Shown: positions 4,542 to 34,154 of the stretch, in pieces
Numbering within the stretch: the stretch's first letter is position 1
How the letters are laid out: each line of letters opens with the position of its first letter
Source of the DNA: Chloroflexus sp. Y-396-1
GTDB taxonomy: Bacteria > Chloroflexota > Chloroflexia > Chloroflexales > Chloroflexaceae
Reading direction: 5' to 3'
Assembly (NCBI RefSeq): GCF_000516515.1
Contig: NZ_KI911784.1
Location: 3,696,633 to 3,760,632, forward strand
Length of the DNA stretch: 64,000 nt
Position numbers and translations under genes: made by a program
Notes under the pieces: model-generated
What the model was told of the DNA's origin: nothing
What the model saw: only the letters and a program-made list of their open reading frames with translations
Databases searched by the model: none

Positions 4542-7500
4542 GTGCAATCTACACAGAATGCTCGGTACTGGATACGGCTAACCGGTTCGTTTGCGATTAC
4601 ATTACTGCTACTCCTGCTCGTTGCTAATCTATTTCCACCCACACCGGTTTCGGCAACGATCCCTAATCGTCAGACGTGGTCTCACCAGCCAGGAAGCTGT
4701 CCACCAGCTCTGGAAGGAGCTGTATTTGGTCTTGCTGGCGATGCTTGCGGTGGTAGTGGTACCGGCTTCGATACCACCCAGATTTACGGTCATTCAATTA
4801 TCCGTGATAACTCATCGCCTGTTGCACCCTGCGAAGGTGGACGAACAACTGGAGTCTGTTACCGAATGTGGTACACCGGTTTCGATGCCTTTGGCGTTCG
4901 CCGTATCGGTCTTGCACTCTCTCCTGATGGCATTACCTGGACCCGTGTCGTGGGTCCTGGACCAAGTGGCAGTGTTCTCGGTCCTGGCCCATCTGGAAAC
5001 TTTGACAGTACCAATGTTTCCTTCCCTAGTGTCATTCGCACTGCGACCGGCTACCTGATGTGGTATACCGGTGGTGATGGCAGTACTTTTTCTATTGGAC
5101 TAGCTACCTCTTCTGATGGCGTGACCTGGAGTCGTGTTCCCGGCCCACTCAGCGGTGGGGCCGTGCTGCGACCGTCTGGTGTAGCCGGTACGTTCGATCA
5201 GAGTATCGTTGCGGCCTCGCGCGTGATCCGTGATCTTGCTACCACTACTGCACCCTGCGAGACTGGCCGCACTACCGGCCTATGCTACCGCATGTGGTAC
5301 CAGGGTATCGATAGTAGCAATCGCTTCTTCATTGGCTACGCCGTTTCACCAGATGGCTTGAACTGGACCCGTATCCCCGGGCCGGGAACCAATGATAGTG
5401 TGATTGGTGAAGGTCCAACCGGAACTTTTGATGCCCGCAACGCTGCTGTTGCTGCTGTTGTGAAGGATGGGCTGCGTTATCGAATGTGGTACAGCGCCCA
5501 GGATGCCAGTGGCGCTCATCGGATTGGGCACGTCGTTTCCCTCGATGGGGTAAACTGGGTGCGCCCACAACCAAACGATCCGGTCTGGAGTGGTAGCGAC
5601 GATCCCGGTACACTAAGCCCAGACAATGTCTGGAGTCCGTTTGTGATCAAAGAGGGGCTAAGCTACCGCATGTGGTACAACCATACCACTCGTGAAAATT
5701 CGCGTCGGGTGGGATTAGCCCAGATGACACCAGGCACACCACTGAGCGCCGTTGGCTTGAGCGGTCTAGGGACGGTCTATACAATAACATTTACAACTGC
5801 TGCACCAATTCCAGCCACCGGATACGTTCTCATCAGTCTACCGGCAAGTGTTGCAACATCAACGATTATACCGGTTAGCTTAAGCGGCTTTGGTAGCGGT
5901 GCAACGCTGACAGTAGAGGAGGGGATGCTCACCGATGCTGAATCAGGGGGAGATGCACGCGGAGCGTTATTGGTACGTCTAAGTGCTGATGCAGCTCCTG
6001 GTCCTAAGAGTATTACCTTTTCAATAAGCCCTCCGCCTGATGATGATACCACTGTTCTCGTGCAAACCTTCGACAGTCGTGAAGTACTCGAGTACGCTAG
6101 TATGACGATTGGGGCCGGTGGTGTAGCGCCGACGCCGACCAACACGCCAGCACCAACGGATACACCGACACCCACCAATACCCCGACGGCGACGAGCACG
6201 CCGACCAATACCCCGACGGCGACGAACACACCGACCAGTACAGCTACTGCTACCAACACGCCAACCAATACACCGGGACCGTCACCAACGCCTACACCAC
6301 CACCCGATCCAGCCCCAAACAGTCAACCATGGACGCAGGTAAATGGGCCATGCGCCGATGGCGCAATCTTCGGTGATGTGGACAGTGGCTGCGGTGGCGG
6401 CGGCACCAATTTCGATACTGAAGAAATCTTTCCACCAAGCGTCATACGAGACGAGGCATCAACTCTCCGTCCGTGTGAAGGTGGTCGTACTAGTGGTATC
6501 TGTTATCGAATGTGGTACGTTGGAGTCGATAATCCTACCGATGCCAATCGTCGGATCGGTTATGCGGTTTCACCCGACGGGATTACCTGGACTCGTGTGC
6601 CTGGCCCACTAACCGATGGGGCCGTCTTTGCAGGTTCTGGTATCTCTGGTCGCTTCGACGAATTTGGTGTCTCTACGATGTACGTCATTCGATATGGCAG
6701 TGTCTTTCGCATGTACTATACTGGATTTTCGGCTCGTGGGGTAATTGATAGCATCGGTCTTGCGGAATCAACGGATGGTATCAATTGGACACGAGTAAAC
6801 GGCCCTTTCTCTAACGGTGCAGTTGTAGCACCATCCAGGATTATTGGACAATTTGACACCAGTTATGTAGTCGCGCCAGTCGTGCTAGTCGATAATGCCT
6901 CGCCGATAGCTCCGTGTGAGAGTGGACGAACCAGCGGGGTATGCCATCGGATGTGGTTTGAAGGGGTCACAACTTCCCCCAGTTACACCTTCCGCATTGG
7001 CTACGCTGTCTCGCCTGATGGCATTAATTGGACCCGTATGCCGCTTTACAGCGACGGATCGGTCGTTCAACCTGGCCCCTTCGGTGACTTTGATGACAAT
7101 AACGTTGGTGTGCCAATGGTTATCAAAGACGGAGCCATCTACCGAATGTGGTTTGAAGCGAATGGCTATACCGCTGGCTACACCACCGGCTACCTCGTTT
7201 CCACCGATGGACGTAACTGGATTCGGGCCACACCTAACACGCCAGTCTGGACCGGGACAATGGATAGCATCAACGTTGGGACACCTGATGAGGTCTGGGC
7301 AGTGCGTGTCCTGAAAGAAGGCCCATCTTACCGGATGTATTACACCACCAGTACTCGCCCTAATGCCCGTCGTTTTGCTTTGGCAACAATGACGCCGGGT
7401 AGTCCTTTAGGGGTCAGTGTTGAGCAAACAGGAACAACTTATACGCTGTCATTTACGACAGGGTCTATTCCGGCTGGTGGAAGCGTTTTGATCACCTTAC

Positions 7501-9467
7501 CGCCGAACATTCCGCTCAGTGCAGTAAGTATCGGGGCAGTCAGTGGGTTTGGTAGTGGTGCAGCATTCGTTGCTGATCCGGCGGCAGTGACTGATGCAGT
7601 CACGGCAGGTGTAGCCCGTGGCGCGTTACTGCTTCGTCTCCCGGCCGGTGCGCCTGCTGGGGATAAGAGCATTACTTTTACCCTGAGCGGATTAAGCTCC
7701 GATACCTCAGCTCTGGTGCAGGTCTTTAATGCCCGTGAAGTAATTGGGTATGAAGCAGTAGAGTTGCCTCTCATACCGCCAAGTCCGACCCCGACCAACA
7801 CGCCGACGGCGACGAACACGCCCACGCCGACCGAGACCCCGACCAACACCCCGACGGCGACCAACACGCCGACGGCGACCAATACCCCGACCAGTACACC
7901 GACGGCGACGAACACGCCCACGCCGACCGAGACCCCGACCAACACGCCGACGGAGACCAACACGCCGACCAACACACCGACGGCGACCAACACGCCGACC
8001 AGCACCCCGACGGCGACTAATACGCCGACCAGTACACCGACGGCGACGAACACGCCGACGGCGACCAACACACCGACCAGCACCCCGACGGCGACGAACA
8101 CGCCGACGGCGACCAATACCCCGACCAGTACACCGACGGCGACGAACACGCCGACCAGCACCCCGACGGCGACCAGTACGCCGACGGCGACCAACACGCC
8201 GACGGTGACCGACACGCCCACGCCGACCGAGACCCCGACCAACACGCCGACGGCGACCAACACGCCGACGGCGACCAACACGCCGACCAACACGCCGACG
8301 GCGACCAACACGCCGACCAACACGCCGACGGCGACCAACACGCCGACGGCGACCAACACGCCGACGGTGACCGACACGCCGACGGTGACCGACACGCCCA
8401 CGCCGACCGAGACCCCGACCAACACGCCGACGGCGACGAACACGCCGACGGTGACCAACACGCCGACCAACACGCCGACGGCGACCAACACGCCGACCAG
8501 CACCCCGACGGCGACGAACACGCCGACGGCGACCAACACGCCGACCAACACGCCGACGGCGACCAATACCCCGACCAACACACCGACGGCGACGAACACG
8601 CCGACCAGCACGCCGACGGCGACGAACACGCCCACGCCGACCGAGACCCCGACCAACACACCGACGGCGACCAACACGCCGACGGTGACCAGTACGCCGA
8701 CCAACACCCCGACGGCGACGAACACGCCCACGCCGACCGAGACCCCGACCAACACGCTGACGGCGACGAACACGCCGACGGTGACCAATACCCCGACCAA
8801 CACGCCGACGGCGACCAACACGCCGACCAAAACGCCGACGGCGACCGAGACCCCGACCAACACACCGACGGCGACAAACACGCCGACCAGCACCCCGACG
8901 GCGACCAGTACGCCGACGGCGACCAACACGCCGACCAGTACGCCGACGGCGACCAACACGCCGACCAACACACCGACGGCAACCAGTACGCCGACCAACA
9001 CACCGACGGCGACCAGTACGCCGACGGCGACCAACACGCCGACCAGCACCCCGACGGCGACGAACACGCCGACGGCGACCAACACGCCGACCAACACGCC
9101 GACGGCGACCAACACACCGACCAACACACCGACGGCGACAAACACGCCGACCAACACACCGACGGCGACGAACACGCCGACCAGCACCCCGACGGCGACC
9201 AGTACGCCGACGGCGACCAATGCGCCGACCAACACGCCGACGGTGACGAACACACCGGCCAACACGCCGACGGCGACCAGCACCCCGACCAACACGCCGA
9301 CGGCGACCAACATACCAGTGCCAACGGTTGTTTCAGCGCCGGCTGTTTACCGATACTACATACCGATAATGTTCAATAGCTATAGCCGCTATCTGGTTAT
9401 TGATGAACGTTCGCAATTAACAACTATCCCAAGGAGTATTTGTCCAGAACCTGTTTGCCCGAACTAG
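4542..9467 (+). CDS. Giant secreted protein: two five-blade propeller modules on Thr-Pro-rich stalks
   Basis: The 1641-residue product starts with GTG and a signal peptide (hydrophobic core about residues 14-29). Two related modules follow, at about 40-525 and 590-1080. Each has five blades marked by a YRMWY-type motif ([37 protein letters not shown] in the first) paired with DGxxWTR segments. Five blades fit the GH43/GH32/GH68-like propeller fold, but no catalytic set was identified, so glycan binding is as likely as hydrolysis. Each propeller is followed by a beta-rich domain of about 120 residues and a Thr-Pro-rich linker: a short one at 529-590 and a very long one at 1080-1590. The C-terminus holds [10 protein letters not shown], a short aromatic/hydrophobic motif that may anchor it. 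A terminator-like hairpin follows. Confidence 0.85.
6126..6297 (+). repeat. Short Thr-Pro-coding tandem repeat (first stalk)
   Basis: Degenerate tandem units of the kind ACGCCGACCAATACC encode a stalk of about 60 residues between the two propeller modules. Unit lengths are multiples of 3, so gain or loss of units keeps the frame. Confidence 0.8.
7786..9312 (+). repeat. 1.5-kb Thr-Pro-coding tandem repeat (second stalk)
   Basis: About 1.5 kb built from ACGCCGACGGCGACCAAC-like 18-bp units and 12-bp derivatives, encoding TPTATN-type peptides with interspersed TPTPTET and TPTVTDT variants. The array has no stop codon in several frames on either strand, which creates long spurious antisense ORFs. 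Units stay in frame, so recombination should change stalk length without breaking the protein. Confidence 0.95.
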
Positions 9468-9788: not shown

Positions 9789-11249
9789 ATGGGATGCTAT
9801 GAGGTGTCCCCATGGTATTACAGAACGTTCAGCTTCACGCTATCAGGTCTGTTGGTCACAGTATTCCTGTTTGGAGTAGTCCAGTCTACGCATGTAACCC
9901 AGGCGCAAAATGGGTATTCGGTGCGCTTTTACGGTAGCGATACCAATGACGGTGATCGGGTCAAAATACCATTGGGATTGATTGACAGTAATGGACGAAT
10001 GACCACTTCGTACCCGATCAATCTGGTTAACGCATTCACTATTGAGTTCTGGATGAAAGCAACTGCCTCTGACAACAGTGCTCCTGCGTGTTCTAATGGA
10101 TGGTATACCGGGAATATCATCCTTGATCGCGATGTCTTTGGAGAAGGTGACTACGGAGATTACGGGGTTGCCATCTGTGATCAACGCTTGGTCGTTGGGG
10201 TTAGCGTTGGCAATGATGATCGACTATTGATCGGTAGAACGGTAGTTACTGACGGACTCTGGCATCATATCGCGATCACCCGTGCAGAGAGCGGTCGGAT
10301 CCGACTATTTATAGACGGGCAACTTGATGGGGAATTAAACGGTGCAACAGGCCGGATCGATTATCGGCAACATCGATCAACCAGTTATCCGAGCAGCGAC
10401 CCGTATTTGGTGCTCGGAGCGGAAAAACATGACTACCCCGGTAGTCGTTATTACAGTGGTTTGCTCGACGATCTACGTTTCTCGAACGTGGTGCGCTACA
10501 CGACGACTTTTGTCCGTCCAACTACCCCACACCCTCTCGATGCTGATACTGTCGCTCTTTATCGTTTTGATGAAGGGTCGGGGGTTCGTATCGGCGATAG
10601 TGCACCTGGTGGGGTGAATACTGGCGAGTTAAAGCCCCGATCAGGTGGTGCAGCACAACACTGGTCGACTGACACACCCTTTAGTAATACGGCTCCTACG
10701 AGTACGATTGCGCCCACGGCAACCGGCACGAACACGCCGACTGCAATCGCCCCATCGCCCACGGCAACCGGTACGAACACGCCGACTGCAATCGTCCCAT
10801 CGCCCACGGCAACCGGCGCGAACACGCCGACTGCAATCGCCCCATCGCCCACGGCAACCGGCACGAACACGCCGACTGCAATCGTCCCATCGCCCACGGC
10901 AACCGGCACGAACACGCCGACTGCAATCGTCCCATCGCCCACGGCAACCGGCACGAACACGCCGACTGCAATCGTCCCATCGCCCACGGCAACCGGTACG
11001 AACACGCCGACTGCAATCGTCCCATCGCCCACGGCAACCGGCACGAACACGCCGACTGCAATCGCCCCATCGCCCACGGCAATCAGCGCCACGTTACCAA
11101 CGGCGACCTACACCATCGTTCCAACCGCATCTCAGACACCATCAGCTATGCCGTCGATTGGTAACGCACCGATAGTACCTACACCACACATCCGGGTCTA
11201 TGTTCCACTGATCACATATGTAATCGGCAATAGGAGTAACGAAATATGA
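9789..11249 (+). CDS. Secreted LamG-like lectin-fold protein with 15-residue Thr-Pro repeats
   Basis: From ATG 9789 the product has about 486 residues. An n-region is followed by a hydrophobic core (FSFTLSGLLVTVFLFGVV) and probable cleavage near AQA/Q. The next 230 or so residues have the pattern of a LamG/concanavalin-like jelly roll: AFTIEFWMKA, DGLWHHIAITR, GRIRLFIDGQLDG, LDDLRFSNVVRY and a closing ALYRFDEGSG. Then come eight 15-residue PSPTATGTNTPTAIA units and a C-terminal IRVYVPLITYV motif. The reading frame is open upstream to a GTG at 9612, but that would put 60 residues before the signal peptide. GGAG (9778-9781) supports 9789. Its stop overlaps the ACP start by 4 nt. Confidence 0.75.
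   Translation: MGCYEVSPWYYRTFSFTLSGLLVTVFLFGVVQSTHVTQAQNGYSVRFYGSDTNDGDRVKIPLGLIDSNGRMTTSYPINLVNAFTIEFWMKATASDNSAPACSNGWYTGNIILDRDVFGEGDYGDYGVAICDQRLVVGVSVGNDDRLLIGRTVVTDGLWHHIAITRAESGRIRLFIDGQLDGELNGATGRIDYRQHRSTSYPSSDPYLVLGAEKHDYPGSRYYSGLLDDLRFSNVVRYTTTFVRPTTPHPLDADTVALYRFDEGSGVRIGDSAPGGVNTGELKPRSGGAAQHWSTDTPFSNTAPTSTIAPTATGTNTPTAIAPSPTATGTNTPTAIVPSPTATGANTPTAIAPSPTATGTNTPTAIVPSPTATGTNTPTAIVPSPTATGTNTPTAIVPSPTATGTNTPTAIVPSPTATGTNTPTAIAPSPTAISATLPTATYTIVPTASQTPSAMPSIGNAPIVPTPHIRVYVPLITYVIGNRSNEI
10713..11072 (+). repeat. Eight tandem 45-bp units coding a Thr-Pro stalk
   Basis: Eight near-identical 45-bp units start with CCCACGGCAACCGG and encode PTATGTNTPTAIxPS. Variation is limited to a few sites (Ala or Val near the end, one Gly-Ala change). 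Such homogeneity points to recent unit amplification, and the length is in frame. Confidence 0.95.
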
Positions 11250-11569
11250 CGAGTCTACCCATTTCGCGAGCTGAACTGAGCAACTTGGTCATCGACGGTC
11301 TGCGCGACATCCTTGAGCAAAGTGACCGCCCCATACCCGCAACGCTTGATGAACAAACGCTTCTGTTTGGCAAAGGGGCACTGCTCGACTCGTTGGCTCT
11401 GGTCACGCTGGTAGTCGACCTTGAACAGCGTCTTGAAGAGCAGTTTGGCTTGACCCTCACGCTGGCCGATGATCGGGCAATGTCGCAGCGTCATAGCCCG
11501 TTCCGGAGTGTTGGTACGCTGGTCGATTACCTTGAACAACTTATCAGCGAGGAGTCGGGCCGTGACTGA
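11246..11569 (+). CDS. Acyl carrier protein
   Basis: The 107-residue product is an ACP/PCP-type carrier. The attachment motif is LLDSLALVTLV, with Ser49 in the DSL triad as the likely 4'-phosphopantetheine site. The helix after it (VVDLEQRLEEQFG) is acidic, as usual for helix II and III of ACPs. The start ATG overlaps the TGA of the LamG gene, and GGAG in TAGGAGTAAC lies about 9 nt upstream. It is followed, with an 8-nt overlap, by an SDR reductase and then an AMP-forming ligase. It therefore probably serves a small dedicated acyl pathway rather than bulk fatty acid synthesis. Confidence 0.9.
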   Translation: MTSLPISRAELSNLVIDGLRDILEQSDRPIPATLDEQTLLFGKGALLDSLALVTLVVDLEQRLEEQFGLTLTLADDRAMSQRHSPFRSVGTLVDYLEQLISEESGRD

Positions 11570-12266
11570 ACGGGAGGTCGTCCTCATCACGGGCAGTAGT
11601 CGCGGGATTGGGCACTTTCTGGTTGACCATTTTCTCGGACGTGGAGCGCTGGTAGAAGGGTGTGCCCGTCATCCGGTTGATTGGGAACGGCCCGGCTATA
11701 CCCATCATTGTGTTGATGTGACCGATGAGAGTCAGGTCAAAGCGATGCTGAGTTCTATTCACCGTCGGCACGGACGGCTCGATATTGCCATCAACAATGC
11801 CGGGATTGCCGCAATGAACCACGCGCTGTTGATGCCGGGTGATACGGCGCGTCAGATTCTGCATGTCAATGTCTTAGGCAGTTTTCTCGTCTGTCGCGAA
11901 GCAGCCAAACTCATGCGCCGACGGAACTACGGGCGGATTGTTAACTTTAGCACCATTGCAGTGCCGTTGCGTCTCGAAGGGGAAGCGCTGTATGCCGCAG
12001 CCAAGAGTGCCGTTGAGATGTTGACCCGCGTGCTGGCACGGGAGTTTGCTCCGTTCGGGATCACCGTGAACGCCATTGGCCCAACGCCCATCGAGACCGA
12101 TTTGATCCGAGGCGTACCGCGTGAAAAACTGCAACAGATCATCGACCATCTGGCTATTCGTCGCTTTGGAATGTTTCGTGATGTTGCCCACGTGATTGAT
12201 TTCTTCGTGCATCCGGCCAGCGACAACATTACCGGTCAGGTCCTCTATCTTGGCGGTGGTGGGTGA
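11562..12266 (+). CDS. SDR-family oxidoreductase (FabG-like, 3-oxoacyl-ACP reductase type)
   Basis: The 234-residue protein has the classical SDR signature: ITGSSRGIG nucleotide-binding loop (9-17), INNAG (78-81 region), Ser130 and a YAAAK active site with Tyr144 and Lys148. GTG 11562 is chosen because the cofactor loop then sits at the normal distance from the N-terminus, and GAGGAG lies about 8 nt upstream; the longer frame from 11469 would add an unrelated leader read inside the ACP gene. The family reduces 3-oxoacyl thioesters or sugar/alcohol ketones with NAD(P)H. Sitting between an ACP and an acyl ligase, reduction of an ACP-bound 3-oxoacyl group is the natural guess. Confidence 0.85.
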   Translation: MTEREVVLITGSSRGIGHFLVDHFLGRGALVEGCARHPVDWERPGYTHHCVDVTDESQVKAMLSSIHRRHGRLDIAINNAGIAAMNHALLMPGDTARQILHVNVLGSFLVCREAAKLMRRRNYGRIVNFSTIAVPLRLEGEALYAAAKSAVEMLTRVLAREFAPFGITVNAIGPTPIETDLIRGVPREKLQQIIDHLAIRRFGMFRDVAHVIDFFVHPASDNITGQVLYLGGGG

Positions 12267-12292
12267 TTGGAAGCACCACATGGAGGTTTGTG

Positions 12293-13639
12293 ATGAGCAT
12301 TGGATGGCTCTATGAACGAATGGCCCAATGGGCGTCGCATCCGGCAATTGTTTGGCACGATCATCCATACACCTATCACGATCTGCTCTCGCGCATCAAG
12401 ACCTGGCACGACACGCTTGATCACCACGACGTTGGTCCTGGTCAAGTGGTCACCATTGAAGGTGATTATTCCCCGAACGCTGTGAGTCTGCTCTTAGCGT
12501 TGATCGAGCGAAACGATATTGTCGTGCCCCTCACGCCGAGTGTGGCTGCGCAGCGCGAGGAATTTCTGGCGATTGCCGAAGTGCAGGTCGTGGTACGCTT
12601 CACCGATGATGATCACTGGCAGATCGAGCGACGCCCGATACCGGTGACTAATCCGTTGACGTTGCAATTGATTGCACGCCAGCATCCGGGATTGGTGCTC
12701 TTCTCGTCTGGTTCAACCGGCAAGAGCAAGGCGGCCCTCCACGATTTCATCCTGCTCCTCGAAAAGTTCAAAGTTCCCCGTCATCGGCGTGTGACGCTGA
12801 CCTTCTTACTCCTCGATCACATCGGCGGGATCAACACGCTCTTTTATACGCTGGCAAACGGTGGTACGGTGGTGTCCGTTCCCTCACGCGATCCTGATGT
12901 CGTCTGTCGCGCCATTGAAACGCACCGTGTGCAAACCCTGCCGACCTCGCCAACGTTTCTCAATCTGCTGTTGATCTCGGAAGCCTATCAACGCTACGAC
13001 CTCTCATCGCTCGAGTTGATTACCTATGGGACGGAAGTGATGCCGGAAAGCACGCTGCACCGGATTCACGAAGTGTTTCCGCACGTGCAACTCTTGCAGA
13101 CCTACGGTCTTTCTGAGCTGGGCATTCTACGCTCGAAATCACGTGATTCCAATTCCCTGTGGGTCAAGATCGGTGGCGAAGGGTTTGAGACCAAAGTGGT
13201 CGATGGGGTCTTGTGGATACGGGCCAGATCGGCGATGCTTGGCTATTTGAATGCACCTAGTCCCTTCGATGAGGAAGGATGGATGAATACTCAGGATGTG
13301 GTCGAAGTTGATGGGGAATACATTCGCATCTTAGGCCGACGGAGCGAGATCATCAACGTAGGCGGACAAAAGGTATACCCGGCGGAAGTGGAGAGTGTTT
13401 TGTTACAGCTACCGAATATCAAAGATGTCGCAGTGATTGGTGAACGGCATCCGATCACCGGCCAGATTGTGACAGCGCGCATTAATCTGTTTGAGCCGGA
13501 AGACCTAACCGAGTTGAAGCGACGAGTCCGCGCATTCTGTCGCGAACGACTGGCACCGTACAAGATTCCGGTCAAGATTGTGATTACCGACCAAGAACAG
13601 CACAGTGCTCGCTTTAAGAAGATGCGGAAACCGTCGTAG
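12293..13639 (+). CDS. AMP-forming acyl ligase (ACP- or CoA-loading)
   Basis: About 448 residues, shorter than typical acyl-CoA synthetases. ANL motifs are present: VLFSSGSTGKSKA (A3, with Ser where Thr is common), TYGLSELG (A5), the MNTQDVVEV aspartate region, GRRSEIINVGGQKVYPAEVE (hinge) and a basic C-terminal SARFKKMRK where the catalytic lysine would be. GGAGG (12282-12286) 6 nt before ATG 12293 fixes the start, giving a 26-nt gap after the SDR gene. It may load an acyl group onto the adjacent ACP; whether the acceptor is ACP or CoA is inference. Confidence 0.8.
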   Translation: MSIGWLYERMAQWASHPAIVWHDHPYTYHDLLSRIKTWHDTLDHHDVGPGQVVTIEGDYSPNAVSLLLALIERNDIVVPLTPSVAAQREEFLAIAEVQVVVRFTDDDHWQIERRPIPVTNPLTLQLIARQHPGLVLFSSGSTGKSKAALHDFILLLEKFKVPRHRRVTLTFLLLDHIGGINTLFYTLANGGTVVSVPSRDPDVVCRAIETHRVQTLPTSPTFLNLLLISEAYQRYDLSSLELITYGTEVMPESTLHRIHEVFPHVQLLQTYGLSELGILRSKSRDSNSLWVKIGGEGFETKVVDGVLWIRARSAMLGYLNAPSPFDEEGWMNTQDVVEVDGEYIRILGRRSEIINVGGQKVYPAEVESVLLQLPNIKDVAVIGERHPITGQIVTARINLFEPEDLTELKRRVRAFCRERLAPYKIPVKIVITDQEQHSARFKKMRKPS

Positions 13640-13661: not shown

Positions 13662-15173
13662 ATGTCTATGATACCGATTGTTCATCTGGCAATCGATCCG
13701 GCGCTAGCACCACAACGCCCTGAAATCACCTATACCTGGCGCACCTTGCTAACCGGTATGGGGTATGGCTGGCAGGAACTCCCGTGGAATGCCTCAGCGG
13801 TAACAATTGCCTACGCCGCCGATCCATTGCAGGTGCCATCGGCCCAGATAGTGATTCATGCTCAGCCTGAACGTTGGACCAACCCTCAGCAGGTTCGTCT
13901 GATTGGCCATACACAATGTCACGGCTACACCTTGCCGCGTCTGGAAGGCGATACCCCGCAGGCATACCCACAGGTAGTTAATGGCAGTCTACACATTGTC
14001 AATGACCCAATTTTTGCTGCGTTTTGGCTGCTCAGTGGGTACGAAGAAGATCAATACCCAACCCTCAAACACGGCTATCGTGATTTGAGTGGTTCGCCAA
14101 TGCTCACCGCAGGCTTGCTACGCCGCGGATTAGCGTCGGCGATTGGCTGCTGGCTGACAGACATGCTACAGCGATGTGGATTGCCGCACGGATTACCTCG
14201 TTGGCCCAATGGGGCTATGCTAGCAGCTTCTTGTGGTCACGATGTTGATTACCCAGAGATTGTGCGCTGGCTAGAACCACTGCGTATTCTGCATCGACAG
14301 GGCATCAGAGGGCTACGGGCTGCATTTGATGTGGTACGTGGTCGGCGCAACCACTGGCATTTTCACTCATGGATGGCGCTCGAAGAACAACTCGGTACCC
14401 GTTCGGCGTTCTACTTCGTAGCCCGCCAGGGTTCGTTGCTGGAATATGCAACCGGTCGGCCTGATCCCTTCTACGATGTACAGGCTCCTCACTTCCGCCA
14501 ACTCTTTCGTGAATTGAGTACTGCGGGCTGGGAAATTGGTCTTCATGCCAGCTATTTGGCCTACACCGACCGCAGTATCCTCGCCGCCGAACGCGAGCGA
14601 CTGGCTACGTCTAGTGGTCAACCTATTGAGGGGAATCGCCATCACTATTGGCATCTTAATCCCTGCCAACCAGAACAAACACTCCTTCTGCACGAACAGG
14701 TTGGCTTTCAATACGATGCTTCGCTGACCCATAACCGTTATATGGGCTGGCGACGGAGCAGTACTTGGCCCTTCTTTCCGTGGCATCGCAAACTCCGGCG
14801 GGCGGTCCGGACTCTGCAACTGCCTACAGGCTGGATGGACGATCATCTGTTTGGGCAGAAACAATACAATCCTGGTGAGCGCCACGGTTTGTTGGATGAA
14901 TTACGTGACACGGTTACGGAACAGGGAGGTCTGCTGCTGGTCGATGTGCATGACTATGTCTATGATGATGTCCTCTTCCCCGGCTGGGCAGCGACCTATC
15001 GTGCATTGTGGGAAGACCTTGCCGCACGTGGGCGTGTCTGGTTTGCCACCCCAGCAGCGATTGCCAGACACTGGATAACACGAGCAAATCAGCTTGCAGC
15101 CGTCAGTACCGGTCTAAATGAAGAAGCGATGAACCAACCGCTCTCCTTGAAGACTTCATCACAGTCGATATGA
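13662..15173 (+). CDS. Polysaccharide deacetylase-like protein (DUF7033/CE4-type)
   Basis: About 503 residues in two parts. The N-terminal 180 residues resemble the DUF7033 domain often fused to deacetylases in polysaccharide loci. The C-terminal NodB-like part carries SCGHDVDYPE (metal-site Asp), GWEIGLHASY and GNRHHYWHLN, and ends with LLLVDVHDYVYDD. It probably acts on an N-acetylated sugar or oligosaccharide. No signal peptide is visible, suggesting a cytoplasmic substrate. ATG 13662 or 13668 is chosen over the extension from 13605, which overlaps the ligase gene. The stop overlaps the next start (ATGA). Confidence 0.75.
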   Translation: MSMIPIVHLAIDPALAPQRPEITYTWRTLLTGMGYGWQELPWNASAVTIAYAADPLQVPSAQIVIHAQPERWTNPQQVRLIGHTQCHGYTLPRLEGDTPQAYPQVVNGSLHIVNDPIFAAFWLLSGYEEDQYPTLKHGYRDLSGSPMLTAGLLRRGLASAIGCWLTDMLQRCGLPHGLPRWPNGAMLAASCGHDVDYPEIVRWLEPLRILHRQGIRGLRAAFDVVRGRRNHWHFHSWMALEEQLGTRSAFYFVARQGSLLEYATGRPDPFYDVQAPHFRQLFRELSTAGWEIGLHASYLAYTDRSILAAERERLATSSGQPIEGNRHHYWHLNPCQPEQTLLLHEQVGFQYDASLTHNRYMGWRRSSTWPFFPWHRKLRRAVRTLQLPTGWMDDHLFGQKQYNPGERHGLLDELRDTVTEQGGLLLVDVHDYVYDDVLFPGWAATYRALWEDLAARGRVWFATPAAIARHWITRANQLAAVSTGLNEEAMNQPLSLKTSSQSI

Positions 15174-16132
15174 ACATCTTGCGAACTGTCATTTTTGGGT
15201 TGCTCTTTATTATGCCACCGGCGTTCAAGCCGATGATCTTACGCATTGCTTGCGGTGCCCGGATCGGGCGGGGGGTATCGATTGGCTGGTTCAGCACGGT
15301 GATGGGCCGTCATATCAGTATCGGTGATTACAGCGCCATTCGTCCGCTGACGGTTATTCATTGCGGTGGTGATCTCAGAATTGGACGCTACAGCATTATC
15401 AGCAGTTTCACGCTGGTTTACGGTGCTGCCGGGATGTGGATTGGCGATCACTGCTACATCGGCCCGCAATCGCTCATTAACACCGAAGAAGAGGTGCGAA
15501 TGGGTGATTGGAGTGCACTTGGGGCGCGTTGTATGGTCTACACGCACGGATCATTCTTGCCTTACACGGAAGGTTACTGGGTACAGTTCGCACCGGTGGT
15601 CATCGGTCAGCGGGTTTGGTGTGCAGCCGGTGTCTTTCTCCATCCTGGCACAACGATTGGTGATAACAGCTTTGTAAACTCGCGTTCAGTTGTCAGTGGC
15701 GAAATCCCGGGCGACTCGATTGTCGAAGGCTATCCGGCGCAGGTTGTGAATACGATAAGTCGGATGCGGCGCACGATTACCCCACGCCGACTTGAGGCAA
15801 TCGCTGCGCAGATGTTGCGCCACTTTCTGAATATTGCCGTGCATCAAGGTGACCTGCGACTGCTATCTGGGGAACCGCATCCACTGGTTCAAGTTGGTCG
15901 GCATACCTACCGAATCATGCTGGCGCCGGCAAGTGGTGACATCCCCGCAGCCGATCCTGATCAACCAACCCTCTGGATCATCTGTCGGCATCATTGGCGT
16001 CCAGCTCAGTCAACCCTCTGGCTTGATTTAAGCTCCAACCGACGTAGTGCTGATCATAACGCAGTGCTCGACACACTATGCACGTTTTTACAGCGCTATT
16101 ACGGCATTCAACTCGAATACGAAGAGAGGTAA
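15170..16132 (+). CDS. Hexapeptide-repeat acyltransferase (WcaF-like) with C-terminal extension
   Basis: A 320-residue protein. The first 190 or so residues contain left-handed beta-helix hexapeptide repeats, such as IGRGVSIGW, ISIGDYSAI, LRIGRYSII and IGDNSFVNSRSVV, followed by EGYPAQVV. These are typical of O- or N-acetyltransferases that modify sugars with acetyl-CoA. The last 120 residues are not part of the repeat fold and are not recognised. Start ATG overlaps the preceding TGA by 4 nt, so the deacetylase-like protein and the acyltransferase are translationally coupled. Confidence 0.8.
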   Translation: MNILRTVIFGLLFIMPPAFKPMILRIACGARIGRGVSIGWFSTVMGRHISIGDYSAIRPLTVIHCGGDLRIGRYSIISSFTLVYGAAGMWIGDHCYIGPQSLINTEEEVRMGDWSALGARCMVYTHGSFLPYTEGYWVQFAPVVIGQRVWCAAGVFLHPGTTIGDNSFVNSRSVVSGEIPGDSIVEGYPAQVVNTISRMRRTITPRRLEAIAAQMLRHFLNIAVHQGDLRLLSGEPHPLVQVGRHTYRIMLAPASGDIPAADPDQPTLWIICRHHWRPAQSTLWLDLSSNRRSADHNAVLDTLCTFLQRYYGIQLEYEER

Positions 16133-16135
16133 ACG

Positions 16136-17221
16136 ATGGCCCGCGTTCTGACCGTCCTCGGCACTCGACCTGAGATTATTAAACTTTCACCGCTCATCCC
16201 ACTTCTCGAAGAGCGTTTCGACCATATTCTGGTTCATTCTGGTCAGCACTATTCGTATGAAGTTGATGCCATCTTTTTTGAAGAACTCAACCTCCCGCGT
16301 CCGCGTTACATGCTTGGCGTCGGTTCAGCCCAACACGGAGAACAGACAGCCCGTATTCTTTCGCGCCTAGAGCCGATCTTGCTGCAAGAGCAGCCCGATC
16401 TCGTTCTAGTTCAGGGCGACACCAACACTACTATGGCCGGCGCGCTCTGTGCGGCGAAACTCGGCTTTCCGGTGGTGCATCTGGAGGCGGGCGGGCGTTC
16501 GTTTAACCGGGCGATGCCCGAAGAACTGAACCGCATCATTGTCGATCATATCGCTGAAATTCTGTTGGCTGCCGACGAAATAGCTGCGGCGAACTTACGC
16601 GCTGAAGGGCTACCGGAAGAGCGGATCCACGTCATTGGCTCGACAGCAATCGATGCGGCGCTTCGGCATCGCGAGCGCGCAGCGAAGAGCACAATTCTGC
16701 AACAACTGGAAGTAACACCGGGTGAGTATCTGGTCTTAACGTTACATCGCGCCGAAAATACCGAACCAGATACGCTGCCGGGGATTGTTCGTGCCTTTAA
16801 CGAGCTGGCCGAAACCTACCGGATAGTCTTTCCGGTGCATCCACGCACTGCGGCCGCGCTTGAACGACAGGGTTTACAGCTCTCGCCACGGATTCTGGCG
16901 ATCCGTCCGCTGGGTTATCTTGACACCCTCTGTCTGGTACAGTCGGCGCAGGCCCTGCTCACCGACTCAGGTGGTCTCCAGGAAGAGGCAGCCGTCTTAG
17001 GTACACCCATCCTGCTGGTGCGCAACGAAACGGAATGGCGCTATCTGGTTGAGGCTGGAGTTGCCGTTCTTATTGGTAACACCTACGAGCGCATTCTTGA
17101 AGGCACCGCAACCTGGCTCAGTCCTCCTGGCTTAAGTCGTCTTCACAATGCTCGCTCCCCTATCGTTAGTGGGGCAGCCGAACGTGCAGTTGCGATTATG
17201 GAAGCATCTATTAGTAGATAA
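16136..17221 (+). CDS. wecB: UDP-N-acetylglucosamine 2-epimerase (non-hydrolysing)
   Basis: The 361-residue product matches WecB/MnaA in length and motifs: VLGTRPEIIKLSPL near the N-terminus, HSGQHY, VQGDTNTTMAG, HLEAGGRSFNRAMPEELNR, LTLHRAENT and the DSGGLQEEA motif that binds the UDP moiety. The family interconverts UDP-GlcNAc and UDP-ManNAc or epimerises related UDP-2,3-diacetamido sugars (WbpI type). The Gly-Gly in EAGGRS differs from the more common EAGLRS. It starts 3 nt after the acyltransferase gene, with a GAGAGGTAAACG ribosome site. Given the aminotransferase and dehydrogenase downstream, a WbpI-like role is possible. Confidence 0.88.
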   Translation: MARVLTVLGTRPEIIKLSPLIPLLEERFDHILVHSGQHYSYEVDAIFFEELNLPRPRYMLGVGSAQHGEQTARILSRLEPILLQEQPDLVLVQGDTNTTMAGALCAAKLGFPVVHLEAGGRSFNRAMPEELNRIIVDHIAEILLAADEIAAANLRAEGLPEERIHVIGSTAIDAALRHRERAAKSTILQQLEVTPGEYLVLTLHRAENTEPDTLPGIVRAFNELAETYRIVFPVHPRTAAALERQGLQLSPRILAIRPLGYLDTLCLVQSAQALLTDSGGLQEEAAVLGTPILLVRNETEWRYLVEAGVAVLIGNTYERILEGTATWLSPPGLSRLHNARSPIVSGAAERAVAIMEASISR

Positions 17222-17322
17222 TTATTTTTTTGTCACCAACATATCCATTAATCGTTAGTCAATATTCAGACCTATCAACTATTCTACAAACGCCCAGTGC
17301 TCGAATGAGCTTTAGGATACCT

Positions 17323-18054
17323 ATGGATGAGCGACTACGTCTCTATTTGAGTCGACAAGCAAGCTCACTAACCCGCTACATCAGCGAGCAGGTCGTGCAA
17401 AGTATTTGTGGTTGGATACCTGGCCTCGTTGGGATTGGCTTACGGGCGTTAGTGTACCGGACGCTGATGCACATCGACGGGATCGTTGCTATCGAAGACG
17501 GCGTTCGGATCCGCTTTGCCGACAATGTTCGCTTAGGGAAAGGAGTGTACCTTGATCACGGGGTCTATCTGCACGCTTGCCCTGGCGGAATCACGATTGG
17601 CGACGAGAGTATGGTGATGAAAAACGCCATCCTGCATGTGTACAACTTTCGCAATCTTCCGCACAGTCACATCACCGTTGGCAGACGTTCACTTATCGGT
17701 GAAGGTTGTATCTTACGTGGGCAAGGCGGTATCACCATCGGCGATGATGTGTATCTGGGTACACTGGTGCAGATATTGGCCGTCAATCACGTCTTCCACG
17801 ATACGACTCGCCCGATCAGTATGCAGGGGATCACGGCGCAAGGGATCAGCATTGGTCATGGATCGTGGATCGGGAGCGGCGCAATTATTCTCGATGGCGT
17901 GCGGATCGGATGTAACGTTGTTGTGGGGGCTGGGGCAGTCGTAACCAGAGATATTCCCGATTACTGCATCGCGGTGGGAAATCCGGCTCGGGTCATTCGT
18001 AATCTACGCACTGATCCATTCCCACACGAACAACATTCTGTGCCGGTCTACTGA
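17323..18054 (+). CDS. Hexapeptide-repeat O-acetyltransferase (CysE/LacA/LpxA-type fold)
   Basis: About 243 residues. The repeats run through IRLGKGVYLDHGVYL, GITIGDESMV, ITVGRRSLIGEGC, ITIGDDVYLG, then NHVFHD, GISIGHGSWIGSG, GVRIGCNVVVGAGAVVTRDIPD and the closing GNPARVIRNL. The His in NHVFHD is at the place of the catalytic histidine of maltose/galactoside acetyltransferases. Of several starts (TTG 17230, ATG 17305, ATG 17323), ATG 17323 is chosen for the AGGA 5 nt before it. The 101 bp before it are AT-rich with no evident hairpin. Confidence 0.8.
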   Translation: MDERLRLYLSRQASSLTRYISEQVVQSICGWIPGLVGIGLRALVYRTLMHIDGIVAIEDGVRIRFADNVRLGKGVYLDHGVYLHACPGGITIGDESMVMKNAILHVYNFRNLPHSHITVGRRSLIGEGCILRGQGGITIGDDVYLGTLVQILAVNHVFHDTTRPISMQGITAQGISIGHGSWIGSGAIILDGVRIGCNVVVGAGAVVTRDIPDYCIAVGNPARVIRNLRTDPFPHEQHSVPVY

Positions 18055-28533: not shown

Positions 28534-29142
28534 ATGAATCATCTTGCGTCGTATGTCGTACAGACGTGCCAGACTCTTGAGCAATTACCACTGATTGAAT
28601 TACAGCAGATAGCCGATGCTATCTGGGATGCATATCAGCGTGATGCGACGATCTTCATCTGCGGGAACGGTGGTAGTGCCGCAACGGCCTCGCACTTTGC
28701 TTGTGATCTCGCCAAATGGACGATTAATCCTCAGACGCGCCGGGTGCGAGCAATTGCGTTAACTGACAACATTCCCCTCATCACCGCCTGGTCCAACGAT
28801 CAAAGCTATGCCGATGTGTTCGTTGAGCAATTGCAATCCCTCTACCGGGATGGCGACATCATCATTGCGATTTCCGGTAGCGGTAACTCTGCCAATGTCG
28901 TGCGGGCTATCGAATGGGGCAACAGCGTTGGTGCAGTCACCATCGGGATTACCGGTTACGATGGCGGCAAACTGTACCGCATTGCCCGAATTGGACTGCA
29001 CATCAAAAACCACTTTATGCCTCTGGTTGAAGATATTCATAGTGTTATCTGTCACGCATTGGCAGTTAATCTGGGTCGCCAGATAGAAGACGCTCTACAA
29101 TCAGCGACATTGCAGGCCAGAGAAGTAGGAGGTCGGCGATGA
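28534..29142 (+). CDS. gmhA: Sedoheptulose-7-phosphate isomerase (SIS domain)
   Basis: 202 residues with a single SIS domain. FICGNGGSAATASHFACDL and ISGSGNSANVVRAI bind the sugar phosphate, and the C-terminal EDIHSVICHALA carries the acid/base pair region of GmhA. It converts sedoheptulose 7-phosphate to D-glycero-D-manno-heptose 7-phosphate, the first step to nucleotide-activated heptose. ATG 28534 has a strong GGGGAGGGG upstream; the frame from 28492 is a read-through of the preceding end. The partners GmhB and HddA are coded 30 kb away at 58159 and 58941. Stop overlaps the next ATG. Confidence 0.88.
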   Translation: MNHLASYVVQTCQTLEQLPLIELQQIADAIWDAYQRDATIFICGNGGSAATASHFACDLAKWTINPQTRRVRAIALTDNIPLITAWSNDQSYADVFVEQLQSLYRDGDIIIAISGSGNSANVVRAIEWGNSVGAVTIGITGYDGGKLYRIARIGLHIKNHFMPLVEDIHSVICHALAVNLGRQIEDALQSATLQAREVGGRR

Positions 29143-30236
29143 TTCCGATTTCCCGACCGCTGATTGGCCCTGAGGAAGAAGAGGCCGTTTTGGCAGTGTT
29201 ACGCTCAGGGATGATTGCGCAAGGGCCGGAAGTTGAGCGTTTTGAAGCCGAATTTGCCACCCTGTGCGGCACTCGTTATGCCGTTGCTGTGATGAATGGC
29301 ACCACTGCGCTCTACCTGGCGTTGCTGGCTCACAATATTGGGCCAGGAGACGAAGTCATTACTACTCCCTTCAGTTTTATTGCTACAGCTAACAGTATTT
29401 TAATGACGGGTGCGACACCGGTTTTTGTTGATATTGATCCCAGAACCTACAACATGAACCCCGATCTGATTGCAGCCGCGATTACCTCACGGACACGAGC
29501 GATTATGCCGGTACATCTGTACGGTCAACCGGCAGACATGGCGCCGATTGTCGAAATTGCTCGACGATACCATCTAGCAATTATCGAAGATGCAGCGCAG
29601 GCAGTTGGCGCAACCTATCGCCAGCAACCGGTCGGTAGTTTTGGGGTGGGGTGCTTCTCGCTCTACGCGACCAAGAATGTTACCAGCGGCGAGGGCGGTA
29701 TGATTACAACAAATGATCCGGCGATTGCCGACCGCCTGCGTCTCTTGCGCAGCCACGGTAGTCGCATTCGCTACTACCACGAAATACTTGGCTACAACTT
29801 CCGCATGACCGATCTGCAAGCGGCTATTGGCCGTGCCCAACTAGCGAAATGCGAACGGTTTACGGCGCAGCGGATTGCCAATGCGACGTTTCTCAGTGAA
29901 CACATTCGCCATCCGGCGGTGATTAAGCCGTATGTACGACCAGATGTGCGTCACGTCTTTCATCAATATACGATCCGAGTGATCGGCAACCGTGATGCTG
30001 CGATCAAACAGTTGAATGCAGCCGGTGTTGGTACGGCAATCTTTTACCCTCTACCAATTCCACAGCAACCCCTCTACCGCAAGTTGGGAATTGAGGCAGA
30101 AACGCCGGTCGCTGAGCGGATAGCACGTGAAATTATCGCCTTGCCAGTACACCCGGCGCTCAATGCTGACGAGCTGAACCAGATCGCTGCCGCAGTGAAT
30201 GCACTGACCGTAAATGAGCCGGTGCTGGTTGCCTGA
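29139..30236 (+). CDS. DegT/DnrJ/EryC1/StrS aminotransferase
   Basis: 365 residues, the usual length. It has the PLP fold with VMNGTTALYLAL, IIEDAAQAVGA (Asp binding the pyridine nitrogen) and FSLYATKNVTSGEGG, with Lys179 as the Schiff-base lysine. These enzymes aminate keto-sugar nucleotides at C3 or C4. ATG overlaps the gmhA stop by 4 nt. Together with a WecB-type epimerase, an acyltransferase and a Gfo/Idh dehydrogenase in the same cluster, a C3-amination as in the WbpE pathway is possible; a 4-amination (PseC/ArnB) cannot be excluded from sequence. Confidence 0.88.
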   Translation: MIPISRPLIGPEEEEAVLAVLRSGMIAQGPEVERFEAEFATLCGTRYAVAVMNGTTALYLALLAHNIGPGDEVITTPFSFIATANSILMTGATPVFVDIDPRTYNMNPDLIAAAITSRTRAIMPVHLYGQPADMAPIVEIARRYHLAIIEDAAQAVGATYRQQPVGSFGVGCFSLYATKNVTSGEGGMITTNDPAIADRLRLLRSHGSRIRYYHEILGYNFRMTDLQAAIGRAQLAKCERFTAQRIANATFLSEHIRHPAVIKPYVRPDVRHVFHQYTIRVIGNRDAAIKQLNAAGVGTAIFYPLPIPQQPLYRKLGIEAETPVAERIAREIIALPVHPALNADELNQIAAAVNALTVNEPVLVA

Positions 30237-31610: not shown

Positions 31611-33089
31611 ATGAGCATGACCAGCATTGAACTAACTCCTGTGGCTTATGAACATTCCCATCATCAGACCACAGAATCTCAGAAGATAGCACTTCTCGTT
31701 GCTCTGATCCTGGGCGATGCCCTGGTGGTTGCGACTAGCTTTGTGCTCGCCTACATTGTTCGTTTCTTCACCAATCTCCCGATCTTTGTCGAAGGCGCCA
31801 TGCAACCGGAGTTCTACATACCTTTCATCGCAATCCTCGTCCCGTCCTGGATCGTGATTTTTGCTCTGCATGGCTTGTACCAACAAAAGACCATATTCAA
31901 CGGTACTCAAGAATATCATCAAATCTTTAATGCGTCGAGTAAGGGGATGCTCTTAGTGGTTACCCTGACCTTCTTCGTACCCGACATTGTTATTGCCCGT
32001 GGCTGGCTGATCATAAGTTGGATTCTTAGCTTCAGCCTGACCATTCTGTGGCGGTTTAGCTTTCGGCGCATCGTTTATCGGTTTCGTGAACGTGGTTATC
32101 TAACTGAGCGTGTCTTGATTATTGGTGCGACCGAAGAGGGGCAGGCCATTGCCGAGCAGTTATGTACCGAACGGCGGGCTGGGGCCCAGATTATCGGTTT
32201 TGTTGATGATCGGCTACCGGTGGGCAGCAACGTAGGGACAGCCCACCTTCGCGTATTGGGAACGACTGGCGATTTTGTTCGCCTGGTTGAGCAATACGCC
32301 ATTGAGGCGATCATTGTTGCCGACACGAACTTGATTCGCGAGCGCCTGATCAATCTTGATGGCGCAATGGATGTGCTTAATCGCCTCGAAGTTCGACTGG
32401 CCCCTGGGTTGTTCGACCTGCTCACCATTGGGGTTCAGGTTCGTGAACAGGGCGCAGTGCCTCTGTTGAGTCTGAATAAAACGCGCATTACCGGCATTCA
32501 CGCTGTTGGTAAATGGCTCATCGACAGATTGGGAGCATTGTGCGGTCTGATTCTGTTGGCCCCGCTTTTCCTGGTTGTCGCGATAGCCATTCGGCTCGAT
32601 AGCCCCGGCAGCATCTTCCACCGGCGGCGCGTGATGGGTGTCGGATACCGTCAGTTTGATGCGTTCAAGTTCCGCACGATGTATATCGATGGCGATCAGC
32701 GCCTAACGCCAGCCCAACGTGAAGAACTGGCCCGTTGTGGAAAGCTCAAAGACGATCCGCGTGTGACCCGTGTTGGTAAGTTTCTGCGGCGCACCAGTAT
32801 TGATGAATTACCGCAATTAATCAATGTCTTGCTCGGTCAGATGAGTCTGGTTGGGCCAAGAATGATTACAGCCGCCGAAATGCATCATTTCGGGCGCTGG
32901 CAACACAATCTCCTCACAGTACGTCCCGGCTTAACCGGATTATGGCAGATCAGTGGCCGCAGCAACCTTGGCTATGCCGATCGCGTCCGACTTGACATGC
33001 ACTATATCCGCAATTACTCAATCTGGCTCGACCTGTTGATTATCTATCGCACGATTCCGGCCCTCTTGAAGGGGGAAGGAGCATATTGA
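31611..33089 (+). CDS. Polyprenyl-phosphate sugar phosphotransferase (initiating enzyme, WbaP/CpsE-like)
   Basis: 492 residues in the classical order: four N-terminal membrane helices, a CoA-binding-like Rossmann domain (RVLIIGATEEGQAIAEQL), a fifth helix (LGALCGLILLAPLFLVVAI) and a bacterial sugar-transferase domain. The catalytic part shows FKFRTMY, RRTSIDELPQL, MSLVGPR and RPGLTGLWQISGRS. It moves a hexose- or amino-sugar 1-phosphate to undecaprenyl phosphate, starting repeat-unit assembly. GAGG lies 5 nt before ATG. The flippase, polymerase and chain-length regulator that would use its product are on the other strand at 45986, 40107 and 54637. Confidence 0.9.
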   Translation: MSMTSIELTPVAYEHSHHQTTESQKIALLVALILGDALVVATSFVLAYIVRFFTNLPIFVEGAMQPEFYIPFIAILVPSWIVIFALHGLYQQKTIFNGTQEYHQIFNASSKGMLLVVTLTFFVPDIVIARGWLIISWILSFSLTILWRFSFRRIVYRFRERGYLTERVLIIGATEEGQAIAEQLCTERRAGAQIIGFVDDRLPVGSNVGTAHLRVLGTTGDFVRLVEQYAIEAIIVADTNLIRERLINLDGAMDVLNRLEVRLAPGLFDLLTIGVQVREQGAVPLLSLNKTRITGIHAVGKWLIDRLGALCGLILLAPLFLVVAIAIRLDSPGSIFHRRRVMGVGYRQFDAFKFRTMYIDGDQRLTPAQREELARCGKLKDDPRVTRVGKFLRRTSIDELPQLINVLLGQMSLVGPRMITAAEMHHFGRWQHNLLTVRPGLTGLWQISGRSNLGYADRVRLDMHYIRNYSIWLDLLIIYRTIPALLKGEGAY

Positions 33090-33119: not shown

Positions 33120-34154
33120 ATGTCACGCCACATTCTTCGTGCTGCGGTTATTGGCGTAGGCAGTATGGGCCGTAATCATGCCCGTGTCTATGCGAGTATG
33201 CCCGACGTTGAACTGGTTGCAGTCTGTGATACCGATTATGCTGCGGCTACCAGTCTGGCTAACATTTACCGTTGTCGCATCTATAGCGATTACCGTGATA
33301 TGATGGCAAGCGAGGAGCTTGATCTGGTCTCGGTTGTAGTTCCCACCAAATATCACTTTGCCGTTGCCAGTGCTGCAATTGCGCGTGGTATTCATGTGCT
33401 GGTGGAAAAGCCCATTGCTGCTACCGTCGAACAGGGCTGGTTGCTGATTGAAGCGGCGCGTCGCCAGGGAGTGATTCTCACTGTCGGCCATATCGAACGC
33501 TTTAATCCGGCAATTATTGCCTTGAAAGAACAGCTCGACAAGCACGAGCTGGGGAACCTCTTCCAGATTATATCGCGTCGGGTCGGGCCATTTCCAGGAA
33601 GAATTAGAGATGTTGGCGTTGCCATGGATCTGGCAACGCATGAAGTAGACATTCTCAACTACCTGATCGGCTCGCCAATTGTTCGCATGCATGTTGAATT
33701 ACACCGTCACCTTCACCAAAGCCATGAAGATATTATTTCCGTATTACTCCGGTTTGAAAACGGTGTCATTGGCATCCTCGACATCAACTGGCTCACACCG
33801 ACGAAGATTCGCGAGTTGAGTGTTATCGGTGAGCGGGGCATGTTCGTTGCTAACTATTTAACCCAAGACCTGACCTTTTACGAGAACGATTCGTGTCAGG
33901 GACAGGCTTGGCCGGAGCTGGCCCTGCTTGGAGTCAGTGAAGGGCGAAGCATTCGCTTGAAGATTGCACGCCGTGAACCACTGTACGAAGAGCTGCGTAG
34001 CTTCTGCGAAGCAGTTCGTTATGGTAGGGCGCCGGTGGTTAGCGGTGAAGCGGGAGTGGCTGCGCTTGCAATCGCGAACCAGATTGTCGAGGTTGGGTTG
34101 CGCGGACAACCAGCCTCTGAGTTGATCGAACGGGCACTGGCGGTCGGTGGGTGA
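33120..34154 (+). CDS. Gfo/Idh/MocA-family oxidoreductase
   Basis: 344 residues. AAVIGVGSMGRNHARVY is the N-terminal NAD(P) motif, VSVVVPTKYHFAVA and VLVEKPIAA (EKP, the catalytic lysine region) follow, and the C-terminal domain contains DLATHEVDILNYLIG with the conserved His. The family oxidises or reduces sugar rings; WbpB-type members act on UDP-GlcNAc derivatives at C3. GAGGGGGAGGGG is upstream of the ATG. It is the last gene of the plus-strand run and faces a convergent hydrolase gene 133 bp away. Confidence 0.85.
   Translation: MSRHILRAAVIGVGSMGRNHARVYASMPDVELVAVCDTDYAAATSLANIYRCRIYSDYRDMMASEELDLVSVVVPTKYHFAVASAAIARGIHVLVEKPIAATVEQGWLLIEAARRQGVILTVGHIERFNPAIIALKEQLDKHELGNLFQIISRRVGPFPGRIRDVGVAMDLATHEVDILNYLIGSPIVRMHVELHRHLHQSHEDIISVLLRFENGVIGILDINWLTPTKIRELSVIGERGMFVANYLTQDLTFYENDSCQGQAWPELALLGVSEGRSIRLKIARREPLYEELRSFCEAVRYGRAPVVSGEAGVAALAIANQIVEVGLRGQPASELIERALAVGG

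Follow-up and report, generated by a model that had tools for sequence, protein, structure and literature searches.

The stretch of DNA analysed here (the window) comprises 64,000 nucleotides at 3.70-3.76 Mb of the 4.89-Mb single-contig genome of Chloroflexus sp. Y-396-1. Reading of its open reading frames (ORFs) shows four head-to-tail genes on the + strand (9789-13639), coding for a secreted LamG-domain protein, an acyl carrier protein (ACP), a short-chain dehydrogenase/reductase (SDR) and an AMP-forming ligase, whose nearest named relatives are from Chloroflexus. To judge by gene order and content across genomes, the ACP-SDR-ligase trio, without the LamG gene, is a widespread mobile cassette. 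We consider the chances about even that the trio makes a short hydroxyacyl-ACP with which a sugar of a surface glycan is acylated; no description of it in glycan loci was found in the open-licence papers searched.

The layout given in the initial annotation, with an ATGA overlap, an ACP/SDR overlap and a 26-nt gap before the ligase gene, was found in all its parts. The LamG gene starts at ATG 9789 (its longest frame begins at GTG 9612) and ends at the TGA codon 11247-11249, sharing ATGA with the start of the ACP-like ORF. The longest SDR frame runs from 11469, and profile matches place the start shared with the orthologues at GTG 11562, which gives an overlap of 8 bases with the ACP gene. The ligase ATG (12293) is the start used by the orthologues in alignments and lies 26 nt past the SDR stop; an upstream GTG (12263) is also present. 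The 4-base LamG/ACP overlap is peculiar to this genome, while the gene order recurs elsewhere. This junction is loose, the distance between the LamG stop and the ACP profile start ranging between -47 and +771 bases in the 15 loci with both genes, and the other two are tight (ACP/SDR, -11 to +14 bases; SDR/ligase, -1 to +32 bases; 21 loci).

Conservation of the trio in relatives and across phyla

Ligase orthologues (at least 64% identity) are present in 27 of 61 relatives, and the ACP in exactly those 27. A LamG gene lies upstream of the ACP gene in 15 of the 27 neighbourhoods, our own genome counted; others were at contig ends or masked (L064, L066, L069, L070, L073, L074), and in L051-L055 and L071 no LamG was seen upstream of the ACP. 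The order (LamG-)ACP-SDR-ligase-deacetylase-HEX1-(GT2)-WecB, where HEX1 is a hexapeptide acyltransferase and GT2 a family 2 glycosyltransferase, is common to two Chloroflexales families, those of the named Chloroflexus and Roseiflexus relatives, so that the order, whose conservation had been proposed as a check, is not unique to this strain. Among 400 genomes of the phylum, the LamG subfamily occurs in 33, the ligase family in 21 and both in 20, less than 5 kb apart in 13 of these 20, counts that are not independent since the genomes are kin.

A scan with one genome per species gave at least 481 relatives of the ligase, and the best 80 loci were kept (23 Chloroflexales-like and 57 non-Chloroflexales), to which all counts out of 80 refer. 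The load-reduce-carry cassette postulated from the window recurs in them: ACP, SDR and ligase genes follow each other in this order and on one strand in 71 of the 80 loci, from about 13 phyla. The remaining loci have SDR-ligase-ACP (two), SDR-ligase (two) or, by the thresholds used, the ligase without either partner (five), and in three of these five (L105, L142, L152) a weaker SDR match adjoins the ligase. All three genes are adjacent in 73/80 loci and in the window. Fused SDR-ligase proteins in L114, L118 and L119 were rejected as an ORF artefact, the SDR sitting on a separate overlapping frame. No DNA match was found in E. coli genomes.

The tie to hexapeptide acyltransferases, two of which had been recognised downstream in the window, extends to the other loci. 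In 24 of the 57 non-Chloroflexales and 18 of the 23 Chloroflexales-like loci, the trio has hexapeptide ORFs no more than 3 kb away, compared with three in 316 kb of distal sequence of the same loci and one in 400 kb of the own genome. Among 111 co-directional neighbours scanned with Pfam there were 15 hexapeptide proteins, 5 ketoacyl-ACP synthases III (KASIII), 4 deacetylases, 4 GFO oxidoreductases, 4 DegT proteins and others. In L125, L130 and L140 a polysaccharide deacetylase gene is directly upstream of the ACP gene; the window deacetylase follows the ligase.

Lineages of the ligase, the reductase and the carrier protein

A tblastn search of plasmids with the window ligase returned ten records. 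In pTML1, the thiomarinol plasmid of Pseudoalteromonas SANK 73390, the ligase gene is followed by SDR, ACP and polyketide synthase (PKS) genes, and on plasmids of Bradyrhizobium and Burkholderia the ligase and SDR genes are accompanied by a short gene of ACP size and a large one of PKS type. The pTML1 ligase, which we take to be TmlQ (its record reads 'fatty acid--CoA ligase family protein'), is 42% identical to the window ligase over 446 aa (E 2e-120) and has in common with it the motifs DHIGG, PTxPTFLN, YGxEVMP and QTYGxSELG. In a tree built by a quick method, 75 rows with a window-type SDR fall inside one 79-row ligase branch (SH-aLRT 98) that spans about 13 named phyla, and the AMP-ligases of the own genome split off at 100 from the window-type and pTML1 ligases, with a long-branch warning on the pTML1 row.

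According to the available sections of PMC10098928, MupQ is the adenylating enzyme and MupS a malonyl-CoA/ACP reductase, and the two build the 3-hydroxypropionyl group of mupirocin from malonyl-CoA on MacpD; its counterpart in thiomarinol is 4-hydroxybutanoyl. The MupQ/MupS/MacpD and pTML1 cassettes resemble the window in the adjacency of AMP-forming ligase, SDR and ACP genes and, as far as those sections describe it, in a logic of loading followed by reduction. The gene order differs (ligase-SDR-ACP in pTML1, ACP-SDR-ligase in the window), and where the pTML1-type cassette has a ketosynthase or PKS gene next door, the window trio has hexapeptide transferases instead. With the pTML1 proteins as stand-ins for MupQ, MupS and MacpD, the window ligase belongs to the MupQ/TmlQ family, while the SDR is not of the MupS lineage nor the ACP of the MacpD kind. 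Since on these comparisons its SDR and ACP are of other lineages, the trio as a whole does not belong to the MupQ/MupS/MacpD cassette; the ligase and the architecture are what they have in common.

The window ACP is divergent, with no Pfam match at 0.001 (PF00550 at E 0.024), and PF00550 matches weakly 14 of 19 orthologues. The attachment serine (Ser49) of the DSL motif is invariant in 19/19 aligned ACPs, which carry the family signature ADDRAMSQ..SPF. A housekeeping ACP is found beside FabG at 4.62 Mb of the own genome, the window ACP being a second one. The window ACP is not a DltC equivalog of the DltA/DltC D-alanylation system (17.5 bits, cut-off 68).

The best solved-structure matches of the SDR profile are FabGs (7emg, E 6e-50). 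Thr131 (SDR-alignment numbering) replaces the catalytic Ser of FabG, while Asn103, Tyr144 and Lys148 are invariant. This threonine is fixed in the 24 window-type rows of the SDR tree; the pTML1-type, myxobacterial, FabG-type, Rhizobium and own-genome SDRs of the same tree have Ser, save one with Ala. An intermediate SDR-ligase pair was observed on a plasmid of Rhizobium sp. T1470 (L219), beside a CmlS-like halogenase gene; its SDR scores 248 bits to the window SDR profile, yet has Ser at the Thr position. The own genome also contains an open frame of 1231 aa (G000:C1:3025701-3027980) in which there are two SDR regions; in size and make-up it resembles the malonyl-CoA reductase of the 3-hydroxypropionate cycle.

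The LamG protein and the surrounding glycan locus

Secretion of the LamG protein is read from its hydrophobic N-terminus. Members of its subfamily (40-79% identity to the window protein) occur in Chloroflexota and some Gammaproteobacteria, and in 17 of the 80 ligase loci (10 Chloroflexales, 3 Anaerolineales, 4 Gammaproteobacteria). In the order of the gammaproteobacterium G423, one of the genomes with trio and LamG, LamG occurs in 1/147 genomes and the ligase in 3/147, so their link there is unlikely to be due to chance, in loci that were chosen for the ligase. The initial annotation had called the arrangement unexpected, which is too strong for the trio, a common cassette; the link with LamG does recur in Anaerolineales and Gammaproteobacteria. 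A LamG of this subfamily is absent from 48 of the 57 distant trio genomes, a survey that includes a set of 13, 7 of them picked because LamG had been seen. In L190 (G033) and L191 (G011) the LamG, deacetylase, HEX1, WecB and HEX2 genes are together, with the trio elsewhere or absent. Because LamG is missing from those 48 genomes and stays beside deacetylase-HEX1-WecB, we infer that it is a surface protein tied to the glycan, a client of the glycan locus outside the acyl pathway; the earlier view of it as a substrate or core part finds no support. Judging by L190 and L191, the trio has the look of an insert that the locus can do without.

A genome-wide C-terminal sorting tag resembling the YLPLV-like LamG tail was considered and rejected, since of 378 ORFs in 464 kb of the own genome two matched, LamG and one further ORF, against about 1.5 expected; as far as seen, conservation of the tail is confined to this LamG subfamily. 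LamG paralogues (L049, L060, L191, L193, L194) end either in a YLPLV-like tail or in a transmembrane helix with basic residues, which suggests alternative anchoring. A second LamG copy of the own genome (G000:C1:3008124-3008903, L176) lies beside an amine-oxidase-like gene, away from the trio, and is present in other Chloroflexus genomes too.

On its gene content (Table 1), this part of the window is a surface-polysaccharide locus. Past HEX2 there are GT2, B12-radical-SAM, PMT-type, several GT1/GT2, SIS, DegT, amine-oxidase-like, sugar-1-phosphate transferase and GFO oxidoreductase genes, and another PMT-type protein is encoded upstream (2732-4366). A 2,3-diamino sugar as the product of the locus is only a suggestion, because the GFO and DegT scores are under the curated cut-offs. 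No PKS or ketoacyl-ACP synthase (KAS) was found among the Pfam-scanned window ORFs between 13.6 and 34 kb, and neither a 3-ketoacyl-ACP synthase nor a WbpA-type UDP-GlcNAc 6-dehydrogenase among 30 Pfam-scanned window ORFs, a subset of all ORFs. Three other ORFs were noted. The B12-dependent radical SAM protein (19814-21568), HpnJ/BchE-like under the cut-offs, is 84-97% conserved in the same locus of relatives. A secreted protein of 1641 aa (4542-9467) contains a Thr/Pro repeat (TPTATNTPT) of great length and, close to the C-terminus, a motif like YYIPIM, and a 624-aa antisense ORF opposite to it (7439-9313) is probably a repeat artefact.

Table 1. Genes of the array and of the surrounding locus, with the evidence for their assignment
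Feature	Coordinates	Strand	Evidence
Secreted LamG-domain protein, Thr/Pro repeats, tail ...RVYVPLI...	9789..11249	+	Laminin_G_3 E 2.5e-14
Divergent acyl carrier protein	11246..11569	+	alignment; weak PF00550; carried together with SDR and ligase
FabG-superfamily SDR, separate clade	11562..12266	+	profile, tree, residues
AMP-forming ligase, family including the pTML1 (thiomarinol plasmid) ligase	12293..13639	+	PF00501 E 3.9e-35; pTML1 identity; tree
Polysaccharide-deacetylase-fold protein	13662..15173	+	VimE E 2.7e-16, far below cut-off; Foldseek 3rxz E 4.5e-9, ArnD 8t0j E 6.1e-6
HEX1, left-handed beta-helix acyltransferase with C-terminal alpha/beta extension	15170..16132	+	Hexapep E 5.7e-14; alignment; model pLDDT 73
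WecB-type UDP-GlcNAc 2-epimerase	16136..17221	+	TIGR00236 328 bits, above cut-off 210
HEX2, second hexapeptide transferase	17230..18054	+	WbbJ/NeuD-like, under those models' cut-offs
DegT/PseC-like aminotransferase	29139..30236	+	PF01041 E 6.6e-127; PseC 324 bits, under cut-off 423.5
Bacterial sugar transferase, initiating, WbaP type	31611..33089	+	PF02397 E 1.3e-58
GFO/IDH/MocA oxidoreductase, UDP-GlcNAc 3-dehydrogenase-like	33120..34154	+	NF040723 329 bits, under cut-off 450

Possible product and acceptor of the acyl group

We propose that the ligase would adenylate a short acid at its carboxylate and transfer it to the phosphopantetheine arm of the dedicated ACP, and that the SDR would reduce a carbonyl of the ACP-bound group, giving a short hydroxyacyl-ACP. 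HEX1, a candidate acceptor of the ACP cargo, or HEX2 may then acylate a nucleotide sugar at an amine or a hydroxyl. The target is probably an amine that the deacetylase has exposed, and the sugar may be a 2,3-diamino-hexose; once acylated, it would enter the glycan built by the downstream glycosyltransferases; the LamG protein would be linked to this glycan at the surface, being no enzyme of the acyl pathway. If the chemistry were that of MupQ, malonyl-CoA or succinyl-CoA would serve as the acid through its free carboxylate, and 3-hydroxypropionyl- or 4-hydroxybutyryl-ACP would result. The kinship of the ligase with the pTML1/MupQ ligases makes the hydroxyacyl product put forward in the initial annotation plausible; the substrate and the acceptor we infer.

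Malonyl-CoA and succinyl-CoA are central to the carbon-fixation cycle of Chloroflexus-type photoautotrophs. We put forward tentatively, and with some doubt, a more specific version in which they would be diverted, by way of a MupQ-type ligase and a separately recruited Thr-type SDR, to an omega-hydroxyacyl surface amino sugar, by a kit spread through the glycan loci of about 13 phyla. To our knowledge, the ligase-SDR-ACP kit is otherwise known only from antibiotic polyketides.

The scheme has parallels in other acylation systems. In lipid A synthesis, the deacetylase LpxC frees an amine to which the hexapeptide enzyme LpxD adds a hydroxyacyl group from ACP, and the scheme for the window is alike, with a HEX1 score of 36.8 bits against the LpxD model (cut-off 242.5). 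In the O-polysaccharide locus of Flavobacterium psychrophilum, the wfpC-G genes are predicted from gene content to provide the 3,5-dihydroxyhexanoyl R-group on UDP-Qui2NAc4N by means of a dedicated ACP, a ketoacyl-ACP reductase and a PglD-like acyltransferase (PMC6519341, available parts). The window likewise has an ACP, a ketoacyl-type reductase and a hexapeptide acyltransferase in a polysaccharide locus; the F. psychrophilum system as there described uses two KAS enzymes, which the scanned window ORFs lack, and in the main text as available the word 'ligase' does not occur and no AMP-ligase is named (PMC6519341). In the Wbp/Vim pathway for the linking sugar of P. gingivalis, a diaminosugar is similarly deacetylated and then re-acylated; there, the transfer of an amino acid has been proposed for VimA, and 'acyl carrier' does not appear in the available text (PMC7468200). 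Of the NCBIfam models, VimE comes closest to the window deacetylase, which is not a VimE equivalog (59.2 bits, cut-off 440).

Several observations weigh against the acylation of a glycan sugar by such a route. The window and pTML1 SDRs share 27% identity, and the tree splits the window-type SDR clade from the pTML1-type and FabG-type ones at 100/100; the window ACP gave no BLAST alignment with the pTML1 ACP and a profile score of only 9.9 bits; and a fold search with HEX1, for which the model is weak, gave no match at E<=0.001. The genome G011 carries LamG-deacetylase-HEX1-WecB without the trio, so that the deacetylase, HEX1 and WecB can work without it. KASIII is found near the trio in L127, L138 and L146, and related ligases lie beside PKS genes on three plasmids, which makes a lipid or polyketide product conceivable. 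The trio might then prime a lipid or polyketide that has nothing to do with the glycan, its placement in the glycan locus being incidental, as the pTML1, Bradyrhizobium and Burkholderia plasmid sets would suggest. We regard this as quite improbable in view of the lack of PKS and KAS in the scanned part of the window, the retention of the trio between LamG and deacetylase in two families, and the enrichment of hexapeptide proteins around it.

Could the ligase instead load a free 3-oxo or 3-hydroxy acid, for example acetoacetate, so that the SDR gives an ordinary 3-hydroxyacyl-ACP for the sugar, with no CoA bis-thioester chemistry? The fit of the SDR profile to solved FabGs, not to the pTML1 type, argues for it, as do the 3-hydroxybutanoyl amino sugars that the available parts of the literature report from other surface glycans. 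However, the ligase groups with that of pTML1, away from the acyl-CoA ligases of the own genome, and the FabG serine is replaced in every window-type SDR; we hold this alternative to be unlikely. A dedicated surface-protein modification, in which the trio would supply the acyl group for LamG itself or for the glycan that anchors it, we consider very improbable. The LamG gene upstream of the ACP gene in more than half of the orthologue loci, and its presence near the trio in Anaerolineales and Gammaproteobacteria in spite of its rarity there, are consistent with this idea, but LamG remains with deacetylase-HEX1-WecB once the trio is gone, and most distant trio genomes lack it.

Should the proposal of a short hydroxyacyl-ACP for glycan acylation hold, an entire class of surface glycans in bacteria would bear short hydroxyacyl groups. 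Such groups would escape prediction today, the trio being annotated only as a generic ligase, an SDR and an ACP. The cassette would then be a testable genome marker for hydroxyacylated glycans, and the chemistry of antibiotic starter units would be linked to the decoration of glycans.

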